DNA of 64,000 nucleotides from Catellatospora bangladeshensis (GTDB lineage Bacteria > Actinomycetota > Actinomycetes > Mycobacteriales > Micromonosporaceae): contig NZ_BONF01000014.1 of NCBI RefSeq assembly GCF_016862575.1, positions 62,001 to 126,000 on the forward strand. The letters run 5' to 3'. Numbering within the stretch: position 1 is the first letter of the stretch; every line of letters starts with the position of its first letter. Under the pieces are notes generated by a model. The model was not told where the DNA came from. It was given only the letters and a program-made list of their open reading frames with translations, and made no database searches. Made by a program: the position numbers and the translations under genes. Shown here one piece after another: positions 54,123 through 64,000 of the stretch.

Positions 54123-56909
54123 TCAGCGCCGCGTGCCGACCCGGTCGCCGGCCAGCCTCGCCCGGACCTGCGCCGCCTCAGGTGGGTCGCGGTCGTCGAG
54201 CAGCGCCAGCGCCTGCTGCCATGCCGTACGGGCGGCCGTGCCGTCACCGGCCGCGGCGAGGGCGTCGCCGAGGTGGCTGAGCACGAGCCCTTCCAGGTGG
54301 CCGTCGCCCAGCTCGTGATAGATGCCCCGGGCCTGCCGGAACGCTGCCGCGGCCCGCTCGTGCTCGCCCAGGTGGTGGTGGGCGTAGCCGATGCTGTCCA
54401 GCGTCGAGGCGATGCCGCTGCGGTCGCCCAGCTCCTCCAGCCCGGCCAGCGCCGCGCGGCAGTGCTCCAGCGCCGCGACATGATCACCCTGCAGCGCGTG
54501 GCACCAGCCGACCGCGTTGCGGGCCCGCGCCACCCCGTGCGCGTCACCGGCGGCGACCAGGATCTCCAGGCCCCGCCGGGCGTGCTCCAGCGCCTGCCCG
54601 AACCCGCCCCGCCGCTCCCACATCAGCGACAGGTCCAGCTCGACCCGGCTCTGCCCGGTCAGGTCGCCCGCCTCTCGGTAGAGGACGCCGGCCTGCCGCA
54701 GCTCGGCCTGCGCCTCGTCCATGCGGCGCAGCCGGATGTACGCGCGGGCGAGCGACCGGTGCGCCACCGCCCGGGCCCGGGGCATGCCGTCCTGCCGCGC
54801 CGCCGCCACGGCGAGCTGCTGGACCGTGGCCAGGTCGGCCCAGTGCCCACGGCGGTCCAGATAGGTCGCCAGGGTCCGGGCCAGCCGCCACGCGCGCCCG
54901 GGTGACACGTCGGCGGCTCGCTCGACGGCGGCGACGAGGACGGCCCGCTCGGCGTCCAGCCAGGCCAGCGCCTGCTCGGCGTCGGTGACCTCGGCCGGGG
55001 CGGCGGCCGCCGGGGAGGGCTCCGCCAGCGGATCGTCCGGACGCGGCTGGGTGAGCTGCTCGGCGGCGTACGCCGTGTGCAGGTAGTGGTCGAGCATCCG
55101 CAGCACGGCGGCGCGGCGGCCGCGGGCGGGTTCGAGCCGGGCGACCTCCGCGGCGTAGGCGCGTACGAGGTCGTGCAGCGTGTACCGGCCCGCCACCGGC
55201 TCGTCCGCCAGGCCCGCCCGCACCAGCTCGGCGAGCTGCCTCCTGGCCTCGGTGACCGAGGCGGCCAGCAGGCTCGCCGCCGCCGGGGCCGTCACCTCCG
55301 GCCCCGGATGCAGTCCGAGCAGCCGGAACAGCCGTCCCGCCGCCGGGGCCAGGGCGTGATACGACCACGAGAACACGGCTCGCAGGTCGGTCTCCGGGTC
55401 GCCGGTCGTGAGCGCGTCGAGCCGCCCGTCGCCGCGCAGCTCCCCCGCGACGGCCGCCAGCGGCAGGCGGCGGTTCAGCGCCGCACGGGCCGCGAGGATC
55501 ACCAGGGCCAGCGGCAGCCCGCCGCAGCGGTCGAGCATCTCGGCCACCGCGGCCGGCTCGGCGGCCAGCCGCGCGGCGCCCACCCGCCGGGTCAGCAGCA
55601 GGCGGGCATCCTCCGGGGCGAGCGGTTCGAGCGGGAGCGGGTGCGCACCGTCGGCCGCCACCAGCCCGGCGAGCTGATCGCGGGACGTGACCAGCAGCAG
55701 GCAGCCGGGCGTGCCGGGCAGCAGCGGCCGCACGTGCGCCGGGTCGCGGGCGTTGTCCAGCACGATCAGCAGACGGCGCCCGGCGACCACGCTGCGGTAC
55801 TGCGCGGCCTGGGCGTCCAGAGTGGGCGGCAGCCGCTCGGCGGGCACGCCCAGCGCGTCCAGCGCGCGGCGGACCGCGTCGGCCGGTGCCATGGCGACGC
55901 CGCCCGGATCGAATCCGCGCAGGTTCAGGTGGAGCTGACCGTCGGGGAACCGGGGCGCGATCCGGTGGGCCCAGTGCACCGCGAGCGCGGTCTTGCCCAC
56001 CCCCGGCGCCCCGGACACGACGATCGCGGGCACGCCGGCCGGTGCGTCGAGCAGCCGGTCGAGCTGCGCCAGCTCGGCCGTGCGGCCCGTGAAGGCGTGG
56101 GTGTCCGCGGGCAGCTGCGCCGGGACCGTGGCCGCGCTGCGCGGCGCCCGCTCCGCGTGCAGCAGGGCGGCGTGCGCGGCGGCCAGTTCGGCGCCGGGGT
56201 CGACACCGAGTTCCTCGGCCAGCCGCCGGCGTACGTCGTGGTAGACGGCGAACGCCTGGCCGCGCCGGCCGGCGGCCTGATACGCGATAATGAGCCTGGC
56301 GTGCCACGCCTCGTTGAGCGGCTGCCCCGCCACCGCCTCCTCCAGCGCGGGCAGCCCGTCGGCGGGACTGCCCGCGGCGACGGCCAGCTCCCCGTAGCGG
56401 GCCAGCGCCTCCTGCCGCTCGGCGGTCAGCGCCACGACGCCGGGATGCTCGGCGAGCACCGGGACGTCCGCCAGCGGCGCGCCCTGCCACTGCCGCAGCG
56501 CCTCGGCCAGCGCGGCCGCGGCGTCGCCGTATCGGCCAAGCTGCTGCGCCGATACGGCCGCGGTGACGTGATCGCGGAAGCGCAGCAGGTCCACTGCGGC
56601 GGTGGGCAGGCACAGGCGGTAGCCGTCGCCGGCCTTGCGCAGCACCGTGCTCGGGGCTCGGGCGGACCGCCCGGGTTCCAGCAACCTGCGCAGCCGCAGC
56701 ACGTAGGTCTGGATCACGTTGGTCGCGCTCGGCGGCGGCGGCCGGTCCGGCCACAGCCCGGCGACGAGGTCCTCGCGGCGCAGCAGCTGGCCGCAGTGCA
56801 ACGCCAGCAGCCCGAACACGGCGCGCTGACCGGCCGGGCCGACGTCGACCGGCTCCCCGCCGCGCCAGGCGCCGACCGGGCCGAGCACCTGAATACGCAC
56901 GTCCGTCAT
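54123..56909 (-). CDS. SARP/AfsR-like regulator (wHTH-BTAD-NTPase-TPR)
   Basis: A 928-aa transcription factor. Parts: OmpR-like winged helix (about 1-95, VRIQVLGPVGAWRGGEPVDV, AVFGLLALHCGQLLRREDL), bacterial transcriptional activation domain (~100-245, including LRRLLEPGR and EAVAGQPLNEAWHARLI), NB-ARC/STAND ATPase (~265-540, Walker A SGAPGVGKTALAV, Walker B RRLLIVLDNA), then winged-helix and TPR repeats (~600-910). This is the AfsR/SARP layout that controls secondary metabolism or development, switched by ATP and ligand binding to the TPRs. ATG 56909 has TAGCTT 11 bases upstream and no ribosome site. No biosynthetic cluster is adjacent. Confidence 0.92.
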   Translation of the reverse strand: MTDVRIQVLGPVGAWRGGEPVDVGPAGQRAVFGLLALHCGQLLRREDLVAGLWPDRPPPPSATNVIQTYVLRLRRLLEPGRSARAPSTVLRKAGDGYRLCLPTAAVDLLRFRDHVTAAVSAQQLGRYGDAAAALAEALRQWQGAPLADVPVLAEHPGVVALTAERQEALARYGELAVAAGSPADGLPALEEAVAGQPLNEAWHARLIIAYQAAGRRGQAFAVYHDVRRRLAEELGVDPGAELAAAHAALLHAERAPRSAATVPAQLPADTHAFTGRTAELAQLDRLLDAPAGVPAIVVSGAPGVGKTALAVHWAHRIAPRFPDGQLHLNLRGFDPGGVAMAPADAVRRALDALGVPAERLPPTLDAQAAQYRSVVAGRRLLIVLDNARDPAHVRPLLPGTPGCLLLVTSRDQLAGLVAADGAHPLPLEPLAPEDARLLLTRRVGAARLAAEPAAVAEMLDRCGGLPLALVILAARAALNRRLPLAAVAGELRGDGRLDALTTGDPETDLRAVFSWSYHALAPAAGRLFRLLGLHPGPEVTAPAAASLLAASVTEARRQLAELVRAGLADEPVAGRYTLHDLVRAYAAEVARLEPARGRRAAVLRMLDHYLHTAYAAEQLTQPRPDDPLAEPSPAAAAPAEVTDAEQALAWLDAERAVLVAAVERAADVSPGRAWRLARTLATYLDRRGHWADLATVQQLAVAAARQDGMPRARAVAHRSLARAYIRLRRMDEAQAELRQAGVLYREAGDLTGQSRVELDLSLMWERRGGFGQALEHARRGLEILVAAGDAHGVARARNAVGWCHALQGDHVAALEHCRAALAGLEELGDRSGIASTLDSIGYAHHHLGEHERAAAAFRQARGIYHELGDGHLEGLVLSHLGDALAAAGDGTAARTAWQQALALLDDRDPPEAAQVRARLAGDRVGTRR

Positions 56910-57081
56910 GGCCGCAGTCGAAGCTATGGCGTGATCGTCGATGCCGCAACGCGGCGCCCATCCAGCAGGACGGGCCGGGGCCGGGTGCGGATGGTGTCCG
57001 CGCCCGGCCCCGGCGAGCGGTGTGTTCACCCTCGGCCGCACTCCGATGTGGCGTGACGGCCTGGGTGTGGTGATCAGCTGA

Positions 57082-57564
57082 TCAGCAGGGATCGGTGGGG
57101 CGGACCCACCGGTGCGAGCGCAGGGTCCAGCCGGTGGCGTCGGTCAGCCCATAGCCCTGGGCGACCCAGACCTGCGCGTTCGAGTAGTTGGCGCCCTGAT
57201 ACAGGCACACGCCGTCATAGGTCGTGCTGGTGCCGTTGTTGACGATCGCCTTGACCCGCTGTGACGACGTCCAGGAGCAGACGACCGGCGTGACGCGCCA
57301 GTCGTTGTCGGCGTTCACCCAGGTGCACCGGCCGCTGCTGCCGTCGGTGTTGGGCCAGACGCAGAGCATGCCGGAGGGACAGGACAGGGCCAGGACCCCG
57401 AGGTCCGAGGCCGGGACGGGCTTCGCTGCGGTGGCGGCGGGCCTTGCCACTGCCGCCTGCGACACGGACTGGTCCGGTGCGGCGTTCGCCGCGGGGGCGG
57501 CGCTCAGCACCAGTGCTCCGCTCACCGCCAGCGCGCAGATGGCACGCCGAAGGACACGGTTCAT
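57082..57564 (-). CDS. Secreted protein, peptidase inhibitor I36-like
   Basis: A 160-aa exported protein. Signal peptide MNRVLRRAICALAVSGALVL ... ANA (about 1-30), then a linker and a beta-gamma-crystallin-like C-terminal domain with four to six Cys: CPSGMLCVWPN, GRCTWVN, VVCSWT, then VKAIVNNGTS and DGVCLYQGANYS. The pattern C-x5-C, the internal NNGTS and LY-x3-NY fit the Streptomyces metalloprotease inhibitor family I36 (SMPI-like), though identity appears low. GGGGAACC lies before ATG 57564. Divergent from the TPR/CHAT operon. Confidence 0.65.
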   Translation of the reverse strand: MNRVLRRAICALAVSGALVLSAAPAANAAPDQSVSQAAVARPAATAAKPVPASDLGVLALSCPSGMLCVWPNTDGSSGRCTWVNADNDWRVTPVVCSWTSSQRVKAIVNNGTSTTYDGVCLYQGANYSNAQVWVAQGYGLTDATGWTLRSHRWVRPTDPC

Positions 57565-57567
57565 CGT

Positions 57568-57818
57568 TGGTTCCCCGTTTCGTCGGGCGGATGTTTCGGG
57601 ATTTGTCGGAGAGGCCCCTGCGACGCCTCCAACGTAAGCCGACAACGACCCCGTTCGCCAACGATTCCTGGAAGTTTATCTATCTCTTAGCAACGGTTTG
57701 GCAGCCTGCAAGGAGCGCCGCCGATCGAGGCCGAGGACCTGCGAAAATGCACTGTCGTATGCGGACACGAGCCGGGCGGAGGAGGCCGGTTCGACAACGC
57801 CTGTGCGATGCTCGCCCT
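57568..57818. other. Divergent intergenic region
   Basis: About 250 bases separate the I36-like gene and the TPR/CHAT operon. The stretch near 57670-57700 is AT-rich (TTTATCTATCTC on the plus strand) and could hold the promoter of the I36-like gene (TAGATA or TAAACT on the minus strand). I see no clear promoter, ribosome site or operator for the rightward operon and no further gene. Confidence 0.4.
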
Positions 57819-57820
57819 TG

Positions 57821-58579
57821 ATGACGCGGTTTCTTTTACTGCTGCTGTACGTGTGCTCGTACCCGTCGCGGCGGGCGCGGCTGGTGGCGTTGGTGCTGCG
57901 GCGCAGGGCCCAATGGCGGCGGATACTGCGCGCCGGGCGGCCCGGTCCGCGGGCCCTGCACCCCCTGGTCCGGATCAGCCGAAAGCTCGCCGAGGTCAGC
58001 GAGCATGTCAACGACCTGCACCTGGGCTCCGGCCGGTGGGGCACCCTGCTCAGCCCCCGGACCGAACTGTGCCTGTGCTGGCTGATCACCGACCTGCTGG
58101 CCCGCGCCGCCTGCCACGACCGGGCCGCCCACACGACCGCCGCGCGCGCCGACGTGGCCGACGCACTGGCCGCGCTGCGCCGCTGCATCCGGCTGCGCCG
58201 CACCGCGTCGACCCGACGGCTGCGGCTGGCCCACGACCTCACGACGTCGCTGTCCGACGGCGGCGGCCTCGACGGAGGACGGCTGCTGGCCGAAACCGCG
58301 GCCCGGCTCGCCACCGCAATCACCGCCAGCGGCCAGGAGGCCCGGTCCGGCCTGCTGGAACTGTTCTTCGCCGTGCAGCGGGCCCGTATGGACGTGGCCG
58401 GCCGGCAGCTGGTTGGCCTGGACGCGCTCGACGCCATCGTCGGCCTCAGCCACCGCGTCCACCACGGCAACCGCGACCAGCCCGAAGCCGAGTTCCGCTG
58501 CGCCCGGCACCTGAGCGCGATCCTGGACGACCACTTCCAGCTGAGCGGCGACCCCGCCCGCCGCGACGAGTCGGCGTGA
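57821..58579 (+). CDS. TPR-like protein, N-terminal part (ends at in-frame TGA)
   Basis: 252 codons from ATG 57821 to TGA 58577-58579. A short hydrophobic start (MTRFLLLLLYVCSY) is followed by an Arg-rich segment and then a long helical, Ala/Arg/Leu-rich region like a degenerate TPR array (LAEVSEHVNDLHLGSGRWGT, ADALAALRRCIRLRRTASTR). The frame continues past the stop without a break to 59500, and the text on both sides is of one style. So the TGA interrupts what looks like a single ~559-aa gene: probably TGG to TGA, leaving DESA-stop-HRRWLREQ. It may be a pseudogene, a readthrough gene or two proteins. No ribosome site is visible. Confidence 0.6.
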   Translation: MTRFLLLLLYVCSYPSRRARLVALVLRRRAQWRRILRAGRPGPRALHPLVRISRKLAEVSEHVNDLHLGSGRWGTLLSPRTELCLCWLITDLLARAACHDRAAHTTAARADVADALAALRRCIRLRRTASTRRLRLAHDLTTSLSDGGGLDGGRLLAETAARLATAITASGQEARSGLLELFFAVQRARMDVAGRQLVGLDALDAIVGLSHRVHHGNRDQPEAEFRCARHLSAILDDHFQLSGDPARRDESA

Positions 58580-58621
58580 CACCGCCGGTGGCTGCGCGAG
58601 CAGGACACACCGTTCCAGGCG

Positions 58622-59500
58622 GTGGAGGCCGACGACCTCTGGATCGAGTACGTCGCCGTGGCCACGGACCCGGTAGAGCGCCGCGTCGACGCCGCCGCCG
58701 TGGAACAGGGCCAAGCCGATTTCGGCGGCCTCGTACGGCGCATGCCGTCGCAGCACCCGCTGCGGGCCGTGCACCTGGCGGCCTACGTGGACACCCGGCT
58801 CGCGATGTACGAGGCCGACCCGCAGCGATCCGATCTGCTCACCGAGGCGCTGCTCGCGGCCCACGACTCCGTCCGCAGCCAGCACCGGCCGGCCCAGCGC
58901 GCCGTGGCCGAGCTGAGACTGTCCCGCGTGCTGCGCGTCCACGCCGACGCGCAACGCCGAACCGACCCCCGCACCGCCGCGCGGACACTGGACAGAGCGG
59001 TGTCGACCGCCGCCCGTGCCGCCGCCCGAATCCGGCCGGACAGCCTCGACCACGCGCTGGGCCAGCACCTTCACGGACTGGCCCTGGAGCAGCGGTTCCA
59101 TACCACCGGCCGGCCCGCGGACCGGGACCTGGCCATCGCCGCCCTGCGACGAAGCCTCGACGGCCCCGGCCTGCCCGCGGTGTGTATCGCCGCCGGGCGG
59201 GCACTCGCCGACATCCACGCTGACCAGCTCGACTGGGACAGCACGGCGGCCGCCCTCGGCCGCGCCGTCAAGCTACTGGACGGGTTTGCGCCAGCACGAA
59301 TGTCCCACCGCAGCCGCGAACGTATCCTCGAGAACGTCAAAGCGCTGGCATCCGACGCCGCAGCGGCCGAACTCAACCGCGGTTCGGCGGCCCATGCCCT
59401 GGCCGTGCTGGAACAGGGGAGATGCGTGATCTTCGCGCAGACACTGCAGGAAGCGCACGACAACGCCGGAGCAGCGCATGCCGAACCCGCCGCACTCTGA
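58622..59500 (+). CDS. TPR-like protein, C-terminal part (CHAT-partner type)
   Basis: About 292 codons in the same frame as the gene fragment before it; GTG 58622 is the first possible start and has only CCAGGCG before it. The content is TPR-like (DLLTEALLAAHDSVR, DPRTAARTLDRAVSTAAR, ALGQHLHGLALEQRFHTTGR, ALGRAVKLLDGFAPAR). It ends in the segment that in full-length CHAT proteins comes right before the protease: AAELNRGSAAHALAVLEQGR then FAQTLQEA. Here the protease is instead a separate gene 775 bases downstream. It overlaps the next gene by 23 bases, so translation is coupled. Confidence 0.65.
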   Translation: MEADDLWIEYVAVATDPVERRVDAAAVEQGQADFGGLVRRMPSQHPLRAVHLAAYVDTRLAMYEADPQRSDLLTEALLAAHDSVRSQHRPAQRAVAELRLSRVLRVHADAQRRTDPRTAARTLDRAVSTAARAAARIRPDSLDHALGQHLHGLALEQRFHTTGRPADRDLAIAALRRSLDGPGLPAVCIAAGRALADIHADQLDWDSTAAALGRAVKLLDGFAPARMSHRSRERILENVKALASDAAAAELNRGSAAHALAVLEQGRCVIFAQTLQEAHDNAGAAHAEPAAL

Positions 59501-60275
59501 CGAGCAGGACCCCGCCGGCCCCGGCGGCTGGAACACCGCCCCACCGCCACCGCCCGGCGGCATCCCGCTGCGACCGCTGACCGCCGGTGAGATCGTCAGC
59601 GCGGCGGCCCTGCTCGCCTGGCGAAACCGGGTGACCTGCACCGTCCTGGCAGTGGCCGGCAACGCCGCCGCCGCCGGCTGCCTGCTGGTGCTGGCAGATC
59701 TCCTCCCGCATACCACCACGGCGGAATGGCTGCTGTTCCTGTCCCCCGCCGCCGCGATCCTCCTCGTCACGGGATACGCCCTGGTCGCCGCCACAGGCCG
59801 GTCGATCCAGGGGGAGCAGATCGGCGCGCTCGGCGCGCTGCGCGACTGCCGGCCCGGCCGCCTCCTGCTCACCGCGCTGCTCGCCGCGGCATCCGTCATC
59901 GCCGTATGGTTCGCGGCCGACGCGCTCGGCCATACCGCCGCGCTGGCGGCCACGGTGCTGGCTGCGGTCCCGGTCGTCACCACGACCGCGGTCACCCTGT
60001 GCGTGCAGGCCGTGGAAGGCCTCCGCCCCGCCGCCGCCCTGCGCCGGTCATGGACGCTGCTCGGCTCGAACCTCTGGCGTGCCTTCGGCTACCTGATCCT
60101 GCTCACGCTGCTCGCCACGGCGATCTTCCTGCTGGTGGGCTGCCTGTTCGTGATGTGGCCGCCGCTGCAGGGCGTGGCCGCGTTCCTCACCTCGGTGCTG
60201 TCCACGATCCTGGCCGCCGGGGTGCTGGCCCTGCTGCACAGCGATCTGCGAGCGCGCCACGAAGGGCGGCCGTGA
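59478..60275 (+). CDS. Six-TM membrane protein (glycerophosphodiesterase membrane-domain-like)
   Basis: A 265-aa integral membrane protein with a Pro-rich cytoplasmic N-terminus (GGWNTAPPPPPGGIPLRPL) and six hydrophobic segments. The segment GLRPAAALRRSWTLLGSNLW followed by RAFGYLILLTLL is like the membrane domain found in front of some glycerophosphodiester phosphodiesterases (PF10110-like), a poorly understood family common in actinobacteria. Placed between the TPR-like and CHAT genes and overlapping both (23 bases and 1 base), it is likely the membrane partner or target of that pair. No catalytic residues were recognised. Confidence 0.7.
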   Translation: MPNPPHSDEQDPAGPGGWNTAPPPPPGGIPLRPLTAGEIVSAAALLAWRNRVTCTVLAVAGNAAAAGCLLVLADLLPHTTTAEWLLFLSPAAAILLVTGYALVAATGRSIQGEQIGALGALRDCRPGRLLLTALLAAASVIAVWFAADALGHTAALAATVLAAVPVVTTTAVTLCVQAVEGLRPAAALRRSWTLLGSNLWRAFGYLILLTLLATAIFLLVGCLFVMWPPLQGVAAFLTSVLSTILAAGVLALLHSDLRARHEGRP

Positions 60276-61492
60276 TGACGCCCCCGCCCACCGAACAGCA
60301 CGAGCCGGACGACTACACCGCCGTGGCGGCTGACGGTCCGGTGGTGGTGGTCAACGTCAGCAAGTGGCGCAGCGACGCCGTCGTCGTGCTGCCCACCGGC
60401 ATCGAGGTCGTCCCGCTCCGCGCGATGACCACAGACGCGGTCGAGAAGAACAGGCAACGGCTTGACCACGCGCAGCAGTCGGTCGAGCAGGCCTACGCCA
60501 GGGAGAAAGCCGCGTATCAACGGCGGATGCTCGCCGAGGCTCAGCCGCAGGAAGTCCCAGGCGGCATCCCTGCCGCGCTTCAGGCGCTGGACGTAGCGTC
60601 CAAGGCCTACAAGGAGGCGTCAGCGCTGCTGGACAAGAGGCTGATCGAGATCACCGAATGGCTCTGGGACGCGTTGGCCGCACCGGTCCTGGACATGCTC
60701 GGCATCGGACCCGCCACGGACGGAGTCGCGCCCCGGTTGTGGTGGTGCCCGACCGGCCTGCTCACGCTGCTGCCGCTGCACGCCGCCGGCTACCACCGGT
60801 CCGGCAGGCAGGACGATCGCGTCATGGCGCACGTCGTGTCGTCGTACACGCCCACGCTCGACGCGCTGACCCGGGCCAGGAAGCATCGACCGTCGGCCGC
60901 CGAGAGGAAGATGCTCCTGGTGGCCTTGGGCGACAAACCCGGCGCGACCCGGCTCCTCAGCGCCGAGAAGGTGGAGCGGCTGCTCGTGAAGACGTTCGCC
61001 GCACGATGCACCGTGCTGTCCGGCGAGGACGCCACCGCGGCAGCGGTGCGCGCCGGGCTGCGCGAGCACGACTGGGTGCACTTCAGCTGCCACGCCGACC
61101 AGGACCTCACCGACCCGTTCCAGGGCGGCCCGATCCTGTACGACACCACCCTGAGCATCGCCGACATCAGCCGGGCGCCGCACGGAGTCGGCGAATTCGC
61201 CTTCCTCGGGGCGTGCAAGACCAACGTCGGCGGCACCACGGCGCCCGACGAGGTGATCACGCTGGCCAGCGCGCTGCACCACGCCGGATTCCGCCACGTC
61301 GTCGGCACGATGTGGTCCATCGAAGACCACGTGACGGCACCGCTCGTGGAGCACTTCTACGCGCAGCTGGCCCGCCCGGCGTTCACCCCCGATCAGGCCG
61401 CCCGCGCATTGCACCACGCTGTCGACGCGCTGCGGCTCGACGAGAAGAACTCCCTGAGCGTCTGGGCCCCGTTCACCCACACCGGGCCCTGA
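60275..61492 (+). CDS. CHAT-domain (caspase-like) protease
   Basis: A 405-aa protein with a CHAT peptidase domain (about 120-405). The catalytic dyad of clan CD is present: His273 in VHFSCHADQD and Cys314 in FAFLGACKTN. LWWCPTGLLTLLPLHAAGY and the VVGTMWSIEDH segment are standard CHAT motifs. The N-terminal ~50 residues (VVVVNVSKWRSDAVVVLP) are the region that in most CHAT proteins is fused to an upstream TPR sensor; here it follows a short new start, and a coiled helix (~55-125) bridges to the protease. TGATG overlap with the membrane gene. A proteolytic effector is the likely role. Confidence 0.88.
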   Translation: MTPPPTEQHEPDDYTAVAADGPVVVVNVSKWRSDAVVVLPTGIEVVPLRAMTTDAVEKNRQRLDHAQQSVEQAYAREKAAYQRRMLAEAQPQEVPGGIPAALQALDVASKAYKEASALLDKRLIEITEWLWDALAAPVLDMLGIGPATDGVAPRLWWCPTGLLTLLPLHAAGYHRSGRQDDRVMAHVVSSYTPTLDALTRARKHRPSAAERKMLLVALGDKPGATRLLSAEKVERLLVKTFAARCTVLSGEDATAAAVRAGLREHDWVHFSCHADQDLTDPFQGGPILYDTTLSIADISRAPHGVGEFAFLGACKTNVGGTTAPDEVITLASALHHAGFRHVVGTMWSIEDHVTAPLVEHFYAQLARPAFTPDQAARALHHAVDALRLDEKNSLSVWAPFTHTGP

Positions 61493-61513
61493 GGCCCACC
61501 GACGAGGAGCGAG

Positions 61514-61864
61514 ATGACGACCAGCCCACCGCCCGCGCCGCACGACCCGTCGCCGTACCAGGAGCGGACCGACGGCTCCTACGCCAACACGGCGGCCGAG
61601 ACGTTCACCACCGCCGAGGCCAGGCACGGCATCGTGCTGGTCACCGGCCCGTGCCCGCAGTGCCGGGGGGAAATGGAGATCGTCCTGGTGAACACGGTGT
61701 TCGCCGGTCGCGACGACGGGCCGGCCCCGCCGCCTCCCGACGGCTCGTCCGACCCGTCGTCGCGGCTGTTCATATGCACGTGTCCCCTGGAGCACGCGGG
61801 CCGGCCGGAGGGGTACAGCGGCTGCGGGGCCTACTGGAAGATGATCGTCGAGGTGGCGGCCTGA
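61514..61864 (+). CDS. Small Cys-rich (zinc-ribbon-like) protein
   Basis: A 116-aa protein with a flexible polar start (TSPPPAPHDPSPYQERTDGS) and a Cys-containing core: TGPCPQCRGEMEIVLV, later FICTCPLEHAGRPEGYSGCG. The CPQC and CTC ... GC spacing suggests a treble-clef or ribbon metal site. I know of no named family. GAGGAGCG lies before ATG 61514, 21 bases after the CHAT stop, and its own stop overlaps the next ATG by one base (TGATG). It belongs to the same operon; role unknown. Confidence 0.7.
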   Translation: MTTSPPPAPHDPSPYQERTDGSYANTAAETFTTAEARHGIVLVTGPCPQCRGEMEIVLVNTVFAGRDDGPAPPPPDGSSDPSSRLFICTCPLEHAGRPEGYSGCGAYWKMIVEVAA

Positions 61865-62466
61865 TGAGTCCTGTACTGCGGCCCGGGCCCGCCGCCACCG
61901 TGCACGAACTGCACACCGCGCAGGCCTTGGACGCCCTGCGTCGCACGGAACTCGCCCGGGTCAGAGCGGCGGCGGCCTCCTGGCGCAACGGCATCGGCGG
62001 GCTGCTGGCGGCCGTTGCCGGGTTCGGCATCGTGAAGGGGCGCTCCGACATCGGTGAGCTGACGCCGCCGTGGGCACGGGCGGTCGGCGTGCTGCTGCTG
62101 TTGGCGCTCGTGATCGGGACCGCAGGCGCGCTGTCGCTGATCCGAGCCGCGACGGGCTGGCTGCGGCTGCTGCCCATGGACGAGTTCCACTCCCCCGCGT
62201 ACCACGAGCATGTCGAGGCCTTGCTGTCGGTGCGGGCGCTGCGGCGCGGCATCGCGCTGGCCCTGGCCGGGGCGGCACTGCTGGTCGCCGCGGTCGCCGC
62301 GACCTGGTACGGGCCGGCCCGGCCGGCCGGGTCAGCGGCTGAACCAGCTCGTGTCCCACAGATGCACGTGCTCGTAGTCGTAGGTCTCGGACACGGCGCT
62401 GAAGATCAGCGTGTGGCCGTCCGGGGAGAACAGCAGATCGGTGACGAATCTCAGGCGCGCGGGTAG
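61864..62466 (+). CDS. Small membrane protein, last gene of CHAT operon
   Basis: A 200-aa protein. Residues ~1-165 contain a cytoplasmic helical start (ELHTAQALDALRRTELARVR) and three membrane segments (about 43-55, 75-98 and 138-158); WRNGIGGLLAAVAGFGIVKG and ARAVGVLLLLALVIGTAGAL are clear. The last ~45 residues run antiparallel through the WD40 gene (135-bp overlap) and look unlike a protein tail, so the true stop may have been lost. The ATG overlaps the previous stop. No known family; likely a membrane component of the system. Confidence 0.65.
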   Translation: MSPVLRPGPAATVHELHTAQALDALRRTELARVRAAAASWRNGIGGLLAAVAGFGIVKGRSDIGELTPPWARAVGVLLLLALVIGTAGALSLIRAATGWLRLLPMDEFHSPAYHEHVEALLSVRALRRGIALALAGAALLVAAVAATWYGPARPAGSAAEPARVPQMHVLVVVGLGHGAEDQRVAVRGEQQIGDESQARG

Positions 62467-64000
62467 CGTGCCCAGGCGCTTGCCGTCGGCGAACTCCCAG
62501 AACACGATCGTGTCGGTGCCGTCGGAGGAGACCAGCGTCCTGCCGTCAGGGCTGAAGCCCAGCGCCCGCACGGGGGCGGACTCCGAGCCCGGGAGCGTGG
62601 CCATCGTCCGGCCCCTGGACCGGTCCCACAACCGGATCCCGCCCGTGGGCTCGCCGGCCGCGAGGATCGCGCCGTCACGGCTGAAGGCGATCGTGGGCTG
62701 CCACCCTCCCGCGAAGGTGCTTGGCTCGGCCAGCCTGGCCACGATCGTGGCCTTGCGCGGATCCCACAGCAGCACACTGCCGTCGAGGTAGCCGGCGGCG
62801 AGCGTCGCGCCGCCCGGGTTGAAGGCGATGGCTTGCACGCCGACCAGCCGCGCGTTGAGAACCGGATCGGGAAGCTGCGCCACGATCTTCGCGGCCTTGA
62901 CGTCCCAGAGCCGGATGCTGCCGTCACTCATCGCCGCTGCCAGGAGCGTTCCGTCGGGGCTGAACGCCACCTCCGTCATGGTGGAGCTGTTCTCCTGTTC
63001 CATGATCATGGTGGATTCGCCGGTGGCCAGGTCCCAGAGCACGACCTCACCCGAACCGGCGCCGCCCGCCAGCATCCGGCCGTCGGGGCTGAAGTCCACG
63101 TTGTTCAGATTGCTGGTCGACGAGGTCAGCTCGGTGCGCCGGCCCGTGGCGAGATGCCACACGTAGGCCCGGCCGTCCGAGCTGCCGCCCGCGACCATGG
63201 AGCCGTCCGGGCTCAGCGCGATCCCCATGGCCCCCCGGTACTGCGGCAGGCTCAGCACCAGCCGGGGCGTCTGCGGCAGCCCCACGTACGGCGGCTCGGG
63301 CTCGAACCATACCGCCGCGAACAGCACGACGCCCGCGACCGCGGCGACGGCCGCGACCCGCTGCACGAGCGTGCCCGGACGGCTGACCCGCGCCCGGGCG
63401 GCGGCGGTCGGCGGCGGCGGCCCGGGGGTCCAGGACAGGACCGGGTCGATACCGACGCAGCTCACCTGCCGGGTCCCGTCGGCGGCGAGGTCCACGACGA
63501 TCATGTCGGCCGGGTCGAGCGCGCCCAGCAGCCGGGCGTCGGCCACCTGCCGGACAGGGACGGGCCAGGGCGGCGCGGCGGTCCCGGGCCCCGGTGCGGC
63601 GGCACCGCCGAGCAGCGGCCCGACCTCGACGGCGACCGGCCCGATGAACCCGGCGGCCAGCTCGGCCTTGCTCTGCTCGCGTACTCGCAGGAACCCGGTG
63701 GTCGCCGCTGTGGACGCGGCCAGTTTCAGCGTCTCCGAGTCGGGCTGGGCAAACAGCAGTATCAGCCCGGCTTGGGCTGCGCGAGCCGCCAGCAGCGACC
63801 GCACATGCTCCGGCGCGAGCCGTCCCGCGTCCGCCACGACGAGCCAGGATCCGGCTGCGGCGTGACCGGTCAGGGCCGTCGCCGCGTCATCGGGCACGGA
63901 AGCCAGGTCGACGATCTCCAGTTGCGGACCGTTTCCGGTGGCCCCGGCCCGCGGTTCCGGGCCGCTGTGGCGTACGGATACCCCACGTGCGGCCGCGAGT
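62332..64000 (-). CDS. Membrane-anchored WD40-repeat protein (N-terminus beyond window)
   Basis: At least 555 aa; the frame is open to the window edge, so the start is missing. The visible N-terminal part (~210 residues) is an alpha/beta domain I do not recognise (SWLVVADAGRLAPEHVRSLL, LILLFAQPDSETLKLAAS). One membrane helix follows (near 63304-63363, VAAVAAVAGVVLFAAVWF) and then about seven WD40 blades. The blades are plain from repeated SPDG-x4-AGG/S-SDG-x-W motifs (LSPDGSMVAGGSSDGRAYVW, FSPDGTLLAAAMSDGSIRLW). The propeller is a protein-contact platform. It converges on the CHAT operon; in actinobacteria WD40, TPR and CHAT modules often occur in the same signalling or conflict systems. Confidence 0.85.
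   Translation of the reverse strand, partial: LAAARGVSVRHSGPEPRAGATGNGPQLEIVDLASVPDDAATALTGHAAAGSWLVVADAGRLAPEHVRSLLAARAAQAGLILLFAQPDSETLKLAASTAATTGFLRVREQSKAELAAGFIGPVAVEVGPLLGGAAAPGPGTAAPPWPVPVRQVADARLLGALDPADMIVVDLAADGTRQVSCVGIDPVLSWTPGPPPPTAAARARVSRPGTLVQRVAAVAAVAGVVLFAAVWFEPEPPYVGLPQTPRLVLSLPQYRGAMGIALSPDGSMVAGGSSDGRAYVWHLATGRRTELTSSTSNLNNVDFSPDGRMLAGGAGSGEVVLWDLATGESTMIMEQENSSTMTEVAFSPDGTLLAAAMSDGSIRLWDVKAAKIVAQLPDPVLNARLVGVQAIAFNPGGATLAAGYLDGSVLLWDPRKATIVARLAEPSTFAGGWQPTIAFSRDGAILAAGEPTGGIRLWDRSRGRTMATLPGSESAPVRALGFSPDGRTLVSSDGTDTIVFWEFADGKRLGTLPARLRFVTDLLFSPDGHTLIFSAVSETYDYEHVHLWDTSWFSR

Follow-up and report, generated by a model that had tools for sequence, protein, structure and literature searches.

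Background

Caspase-like proteases are common to bacterial and animal cell death, and to our knowledge few membrane partners of the bacterial enzymes have been described. Here we analyse a group of genes in Catellatospora bangladeshensis, located in a stretch of 64,000 nucleotides (the window; positions 62001-126000 of contig 14, NZ_BONF01000014.1, of the 8.83 Mb genome GCF_016862575.1, a draft assembly of 115 contigs). It encodes an unfused CHAT peptidase, a TPR-like sensor, a small cysteine-rich protein (Cys) and a small transmembrane (TM) protein (TM3). From the gene neighbourhoods of relatives we consider it very probable that a sensor, often of the TPR type, a CHAT peptidase, Cys and TM3 make up one module.

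Among the nearest published ideas are the ternary CATRA systems, as treated in the relevant portions of PMC8195603 (where Kaur 2020 as well as Burroughs and Aravind 2020 are cited) and of PMC12657218. EACC1-caspase appears in the corresponding section of PMC7159879 as a two-gene, membrane-associated conflict system. In the relevant passages of PMC9729208, Csx30 is cut by a TPR-CHAT protease, and activation of a bacterial gasdermin is likewise ascribed to TPR-CHAT; an excerpt of PMC10989679 gives CHAT as about 17% of the fungal gasdermin-linked proteases.

Gene layout

On the + strand, from 57821 to 62466, the order is TPR-like frame, six-TM protein (TM6), CHAT, Cys and TM3, and a WD40 gene on the opposite strand converges on them.

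57821..58579, +, TPR-like sensor gene, first piece; ends at an in-frame TGA (58577-58579); coding-type codon use
58622..59500, +, TPR-like sensor gene, second piece; same frame as the first; ends ...LEQGRCVIFAQTLQEA...
59478..60275, +, TM6, six-TM protein, 265 amino acids
60275..61492, +, CHAT peptidase, unfused, 405 amino acids; His273/Cys314 dyad, PF12770
61514..61864, +, Cys protein, 116 amino acids; CxxC...CxC...H...C, zinc-ribbon type
61864..62466, +, TM3, small TM protein; conserved part stops at about 62317
62332..64000, -, WD40 membrane protein (3' part); complete gene extends to 65193 in window numbering

A first-pass annotation of the window had listed this set of genes, including a membrane anchor on the WD40 protein and a TPR-like frame ending near LEQGR, and all of it is present. 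It had also taken all genes to be coupled by stop/start overlaps. This holds for TPR/TM6, where the TM6 start lies 20 bases ahead of the TPR stop codon, and for TM6/CHAT and Cys/TM3, where both genes share the letters TGATG, but not for CHAT/Cys, which are separated by a gap of 21 bases.

The Cys-TM3 pair and its association with CHAT

In a survey of the family that started from Cys, the TM3 gene follows Cys in 29/29 fetched loci, whose DNA contains CHAT in 21 cases, a C14 caspase in four and neither in four. Since this survey began with Cys, a second scan, of named genomes, was started from TM3 alone and gave 49 loci from Micromonospora, Verrucosispora, Streptomyces, Actinomadura, Actinoallomurus, Nonomuraea, Lentzea, Actinomycetospora and Blastococcus. 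Cys stands directly 5' of TM3 on the same strand in every one of them (48 by strict spacing, with a longer gap in L122), and 47/49 offer a start codon in a four-base overlap with the Cys stop, taking the candidate start nearest to that stop. Though TM3 was the sole query, CHAT lies in the fetched DNA of 45/49 loci; in the remaining four (L139, L142, L146, L149) the match is less than 3 kb from a contig end. At the density of the window genome, which has 13 CHAT matches in 8.83 Mb, CHAT would be expected by chance in about 3% of 20-kb stretches. The arrangement of the 45 loci varies: unfused CHAT followed by Cys and TM3 in 12, long CHAT followed by Cys and TM3 in four, a divergent layout in 10 and a convergent one in 19 (the cut or broken loci L119, L143 and L150 included).

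Judged by this conservation across relatives, the grouping of the genes does exceed chance, and the 45/49 loci support the proposed link of the Cys and TM proteins to the protease. By gene neighbourhood, the predicted Cys and TM3 proteins are a fixed two-gene unit, and the conserved core is this unit together with CHAT.

Properties of the core proteins

The peptidase matches PF12770 with 138.5 bits (Pfam cut-off 24, E 4e-40), and solved TPR-CHAT chains in the PDB match it at E 5e-5 to 6e-4. His273 and Cys314 are found at the positions claimed for them and are invariant in 62/62 aligned CHAT rows (59 distinct), which characterises the protein, as far as its sequence can tell, as a genuine CHAT-family peptidase. 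Within the genus, 9/11 genomes match it, its own included. The window protein does not have the N-terminal DRRMALAREWDELV...FEDFLRPP segment that other unfused CHATs retain; inspected by eye, a start of this type is present in 16/16 of them, diverged in L130 and L132.

Cys carries the pattern C47-P-x-C50 ... C88-x-C90 ... H94 ... G-C104-G, which is invariant or nearly so among relatives. This Cys/His pattern suggests a zinc ribbon, and the protein is probably metal-binding. Its predicted model is good (predicted local distance difference test score 86.6), with no clear PDB relative among 715 chains. Relatives of Cys occur in 43/300 family genomes (own genome included) and in 0/10 of the other members of the genus. 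A few Cys and TM3 proteins gave nothing over cut-off in Pfam, NCBIfam and PADLOC (PHROGs was not searched).

TM3, annotated at first pass as a three-TM protein, is indeed a TM protein, but only two of its hydrophobic segments are clear and the third, at about residues 43-58, falls below the threshold used. Its N-terminal stretch is basic by eye. In 30/42 TM3 sequences the C-terminus forms a tail of 40 residues or more that contains two cysteines, and in 11/42 the tail is shorter than 40 residues; our guess from the topology is that the tail lies outside. The window TM3 lacks the usual two-cysteine tail, as do short forms from Micromonospora. Its homology to relatives stops at about 62317, some 15 bases short of the WD40 gene, and its last 45 codons run antisense into the 3' end of that gene.

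Fused and split TPR and CHAT

The separation of TPR and CHAT into two genes, as claimed for the window, recurs in many relatives. Of the 12 unfused loci, eight have a separate TPR gene on the TM3 strand downstream of TM3, one has it upstream and one on the other strand, and in two none was found; likewise, in 15/20 fetched contexts of CHAT relatives TPR is encoded separately, close to an unfused CHAT and in varying order. Among family CHAT hits at E 1e-60 or better (window excluded, at most six candidates scored per genome), at least 21/39 have an open frame of less than 530 residues, counting G036, whose frame contains an internal stop. The unfused state had been regarded as unusual, a view that does not fit the frequency of unfused CHAT in its clade (12/45 loci; at least 21/39 family hits).

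A tree built from 62 CHAT rows places the window protein in a clade that comprises 17 split and nine fused forms (support 88/94, not a starred branch). The nearest rows by path, L148, L109, L113 and L110, are all split, and in the drawn tree the window joins L089 (split) and L103 (fused) with 80/77; its branch is long and its exact place unsure. The tree requires at least five changes between fused and split, or two when starred branches alone are counted. The first-pass annotation had set against its own proposal the case of relatives with fused TPR and CHAT and a middle gene inserted at random; relatives are in fact both fused and split, with the nearest ones by path split, and the middle gene is a newcomer specific to its lineage. 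In another locus of the same genus (L088:7721-15002) two genes, phosphotransferase-like and kinase-like by eye, part TPR and CHAT, and a gene that is caspase-like by eye follows.

The TPR half of the window had been read as a single open frame, overlooking the in-frame TGA at 58577-58579 that splits it into two pieces. Codons ending in G or C make up 30/30 before the TGA, 28/30 after the next in-frame start and 13/14 in the coding-like stretch between the two, where the other two frames have 11/14 and 7/14. The TGA may be a nonsense mutation of recent origin, an error in the draft or a read-through stop. Neither piece has a TPR match in Pfam, and the first has no Pfam match at all; the TPR label is given because the second, downstream piece is similar to the TPR portions found in four fused TPR-CHAT proteins (tblastn, E 1.6e-7 to 1.1e-4). 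Compared by eye, the C-terminus of the window protein lacks the junction segment that follows LEQGR in relatives, a counterpart of which is present in 13/14 separate TPR proteins and missing in L136.

Two further genes lie upstream. A small secreted-looking protein with several cysteines (57082-57645) adjoins the TPR gene, and a large regulator-type protein, by eye a SARP with NB-ARC and TPR parts, is encoded on the - strand at 54123-57041.

TM6 and WD40

TM6 distantly resembles an actinobacterial membrane family with the motif IPLRPL..GEIL, of which nine relatives were read (stop-to-stop open frames of 356-581 codons). It scores 16.1 bits against GPDPase_memb (PF10110), under the Pfam cut-off of 29.6. 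At E 1e-3 it has matches in 3/300 family and 23/296 class genomes, its own genome counted in each. TM6 lies beside CHAT in 0/104 comparison loci, and 12 loci around weak TM6 relatives, most with about 1.5 kb on each side, contain no match to CHAT, C14, Cys or TM3. The full WD40 gene, which the first-pass annotation had proposed to fetch from beyond the window, was obtained and runs from 62332 to 65193 in window numbering (953 amino acids). It too has a match in 0/104 comparison loci.

Neither protein, then, keeps the place in the system that had been assigned to it, TM6 as a core part and WD40 as a member. To judge from these comparisons both are newcomers at the locus. We infer that they mark where the local copy was rebuilt, since TM6 occupies the place of the missing junction and TM3 homology ends near WD40.

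Other partners of Cys-TM3

Several genomes of the family (genera g18 and g29; L085, L087, L097) have Cys-TM3 next to large proteins with Peptidase_C14, iHD-CE and wHTH parts, and the same neighbours are found in three genomes of another family (L226-L228). The order in L087 and L226-L228 is C14, Cys, TM3, as in CHAT-Cys-TM3. In L084 the C14 part lies in two frames.

RES toxins act on NAD (nicotinamide adenine dinucleotide). In ten Streptomyces loci (L117, L118, L133, L134, L137, L138, L140, L141, L147 and L151) a RES-domain gene lies two genes past a long CHAT protein, divergent from Cys-TM3; it was recognised by PF08808 in L117 (E 3.5e-16) and, in the remaining nine, by a local model based on four of them. 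A helical gene is also present after the long CHAT in these ten loci.

Discussion

We regard it as an even call that a module widespread in actinobacteria, made up of sensor (often TPR), CHAT, Cys and TM3, is present here as a local, remodelled copy and works by the following mechanism. The TPR half would sense a trigger and restrain CHAT; on triggering, CHAT would be freed and would cut a partner at the membrane, for which the co-encoded proteins Cys and TM3 are the likeliest candidates, and the cell would be harmed or its growth stopped, an outcome of the abortive-infection kind. Fused relatives are suggestive of TPR and CHAT acting as one unit. The earlier idea that a protease switch at the membrane acts on the TM or the Cys protein appears a fair reading of the predicted proteins, and the gene set is perhaps a cell-death or defence switch, but we hold the mechanism as a whole tentatively. 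In the window genome TM6 would have replaced the sensor-protease junction and the TM3 tail would have been lost at the WD40 gene. Because of these two changes and of the stop in the TPR gene, the window copy may be re-wired or failing.

Several observations weigh against the module and its mechanism as described. The window copy itself has a broken TPR frame and lacks the junction segments. Cys-TM3 stands without a CHAT or C14 match in L086 and L093, where the context is wide, in L092, whose contig ends 2.4 kb after TM3, and in L234; the fourth family locus with neither peptidase, L075, has its contig end at TM3. In the ten divergent Streptomyces loci the part before CHAT has no TPR match (by Pfam in L117, by blastp in the rest). 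Of 14 proteins compared with PADLOC, matches were obtained only for the C14 protein of L085 (E 2e-9) and, weakly, for TM6 (E 0.02). Finally, 19/20 contexts of near CHAT relatives lack the Cys-TM3 pair, L191 being the exception, so that the association is strong from the side of TM3 and loose from that of CHAT.

Could the window copy then simply be a decaying remnant, in which TM6 and WD40 merely landed? The in-frame TGA, the loss of the junction segment on both sides (compared with its presence in 16/16 unfused CHATs and 13/14 separate TPR genes), the end of TM3 homology some 15 bases ahead of WD40 and the lack of any comparison locus with TM6 or WD40 beside CHAT would all be accounted for. 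However, CHAT, Cys and TM6 each have an intact frame, CHAT has kept its dyad and Cys its pattern, the tight stop/start coupling at TM6/CHAT and Cys/TM3 would be odd for rubble, and the TGA is possibly a recent change or a draft error, which leads us to consider decay unlikely. TM6 might instead be a functional middle component that anchors TPR and CHAT at the membrane or is cut by CHAT, given that it sits exactly where the junction segment would be and is coupled to the genes on either side. But no comparison locus has TM6 there, and CHAT, C14, Cys and TM3 are all without a match in the 12 loci around its weak relatives; we think a role of this kind quite improbable.

A serious rival is one in which TM3 serves as input rather than output: its two-cysteine tail would sense the state of the envelope, Cys would relay the signal and the peptidase would act elsewhere, for example on a RES-type partner, placing Cys-TM3 upstream. 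Such a role would suit the two-cysteine tail of at least 40 residues in 30/42 TM3 sequences and the Streptomyces loci with RES as a separate likely effector, and a shared input could well serve two unlike peptidases, as one Cys-TM3 unit does. On the other hand, the tail is shorter than 40 residues in 11/42 rows and without cysteines in the window, and the TPR part already resembles a variable sensor. We accordingly rate this possibility as serious, yet improbable on balance.

What, then, would Cys-TM3 be in a module in which CHAT cuts a partner at the membrane? Because the pair remains constant while the peptidase switches from CHAT to C14, it points at a common partner or substrate. It is conceivable, if doubtful, that Cys-TM3 is an unnamed membrane unit common to CHAT/TPR peptidases and to those on C14/HD-CE/Hsp90-like chassis, namely a protease-gated effector that resembles gasdermin in role but is built differently. 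The gene set has been little noticed though it is present in many actinobacteria, with a rearranged copy in the window, and its natural fused and split forms should be useful for learning how TPR restrains a CHAT protease.

Comparison with known systems

With Csx29, the protease of the type III-E CRISPR system Craspase, the locus shares a CHAT domain with a His/Cys dyad. It differs in that TPR and CHAT are separate chains, and the Csx29 model scores 49.2 bits against the window CHAT, with a cut-off of 300. The likeness to gasdermin operons, as these are described in the relevant part of PMC9729208, lies in a protease that activates a protein acting at the membrane. TM3, however, has hydrophobic helices and Cys is of the zinc-ribbon type. 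None of the two TPR pieces, TM6, CHAT, Cys and TM3 has a gasdermin match in Pfam at E 0.1, and among the matches listed for WD40 (25 of 51; for the full length 25 of 41) all are propeller models and none is gasdermin.

EACC1 is closer in pairing the gene of a small membrane protein with that of a caspase-superfamily peptidase. According to the section on it in PMC7159879, EACC1 has one TM helix and is encoded 5' of the caspase gene, whereas here the Cys protein precedes a protein with two to three TM segments and the pair, when co-directional, usually lies 3' of the peptidase. The window Cys and TM3 have no match in Pfam, a library in which the presence of EACC1 is unconfirmed.

With CATRA systems, judged from descriptions in parts of other papers, the locus has in common a caspase-superfamily peptidase, a TPR protein and a third protein, and differs in that Cys-TM3 stands in the place of the third component. 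CATRA-N has 0 matches in the window genome. CATRA-like genes with hydrophobic segments neighbour two near CHAT relatives, each in a different genome of the family, encoding membrane proteins beside unfused CHAT and TPR genes (Pfam-confirmed in L189):

L189:7337-8857, CATRA-like membrane protein
L190:11048-12532, CATRA-like membrane protein

Both Cys-TM3 and a CATRA-like gene (E 1.7e-11, local search only) are found in L103. In view of the CATRA-like genes in these three loci, Cys-TM3 may be an alternative third component. The locus is a variant of the caspase/TPR conflict-type systems, outside CATRA.

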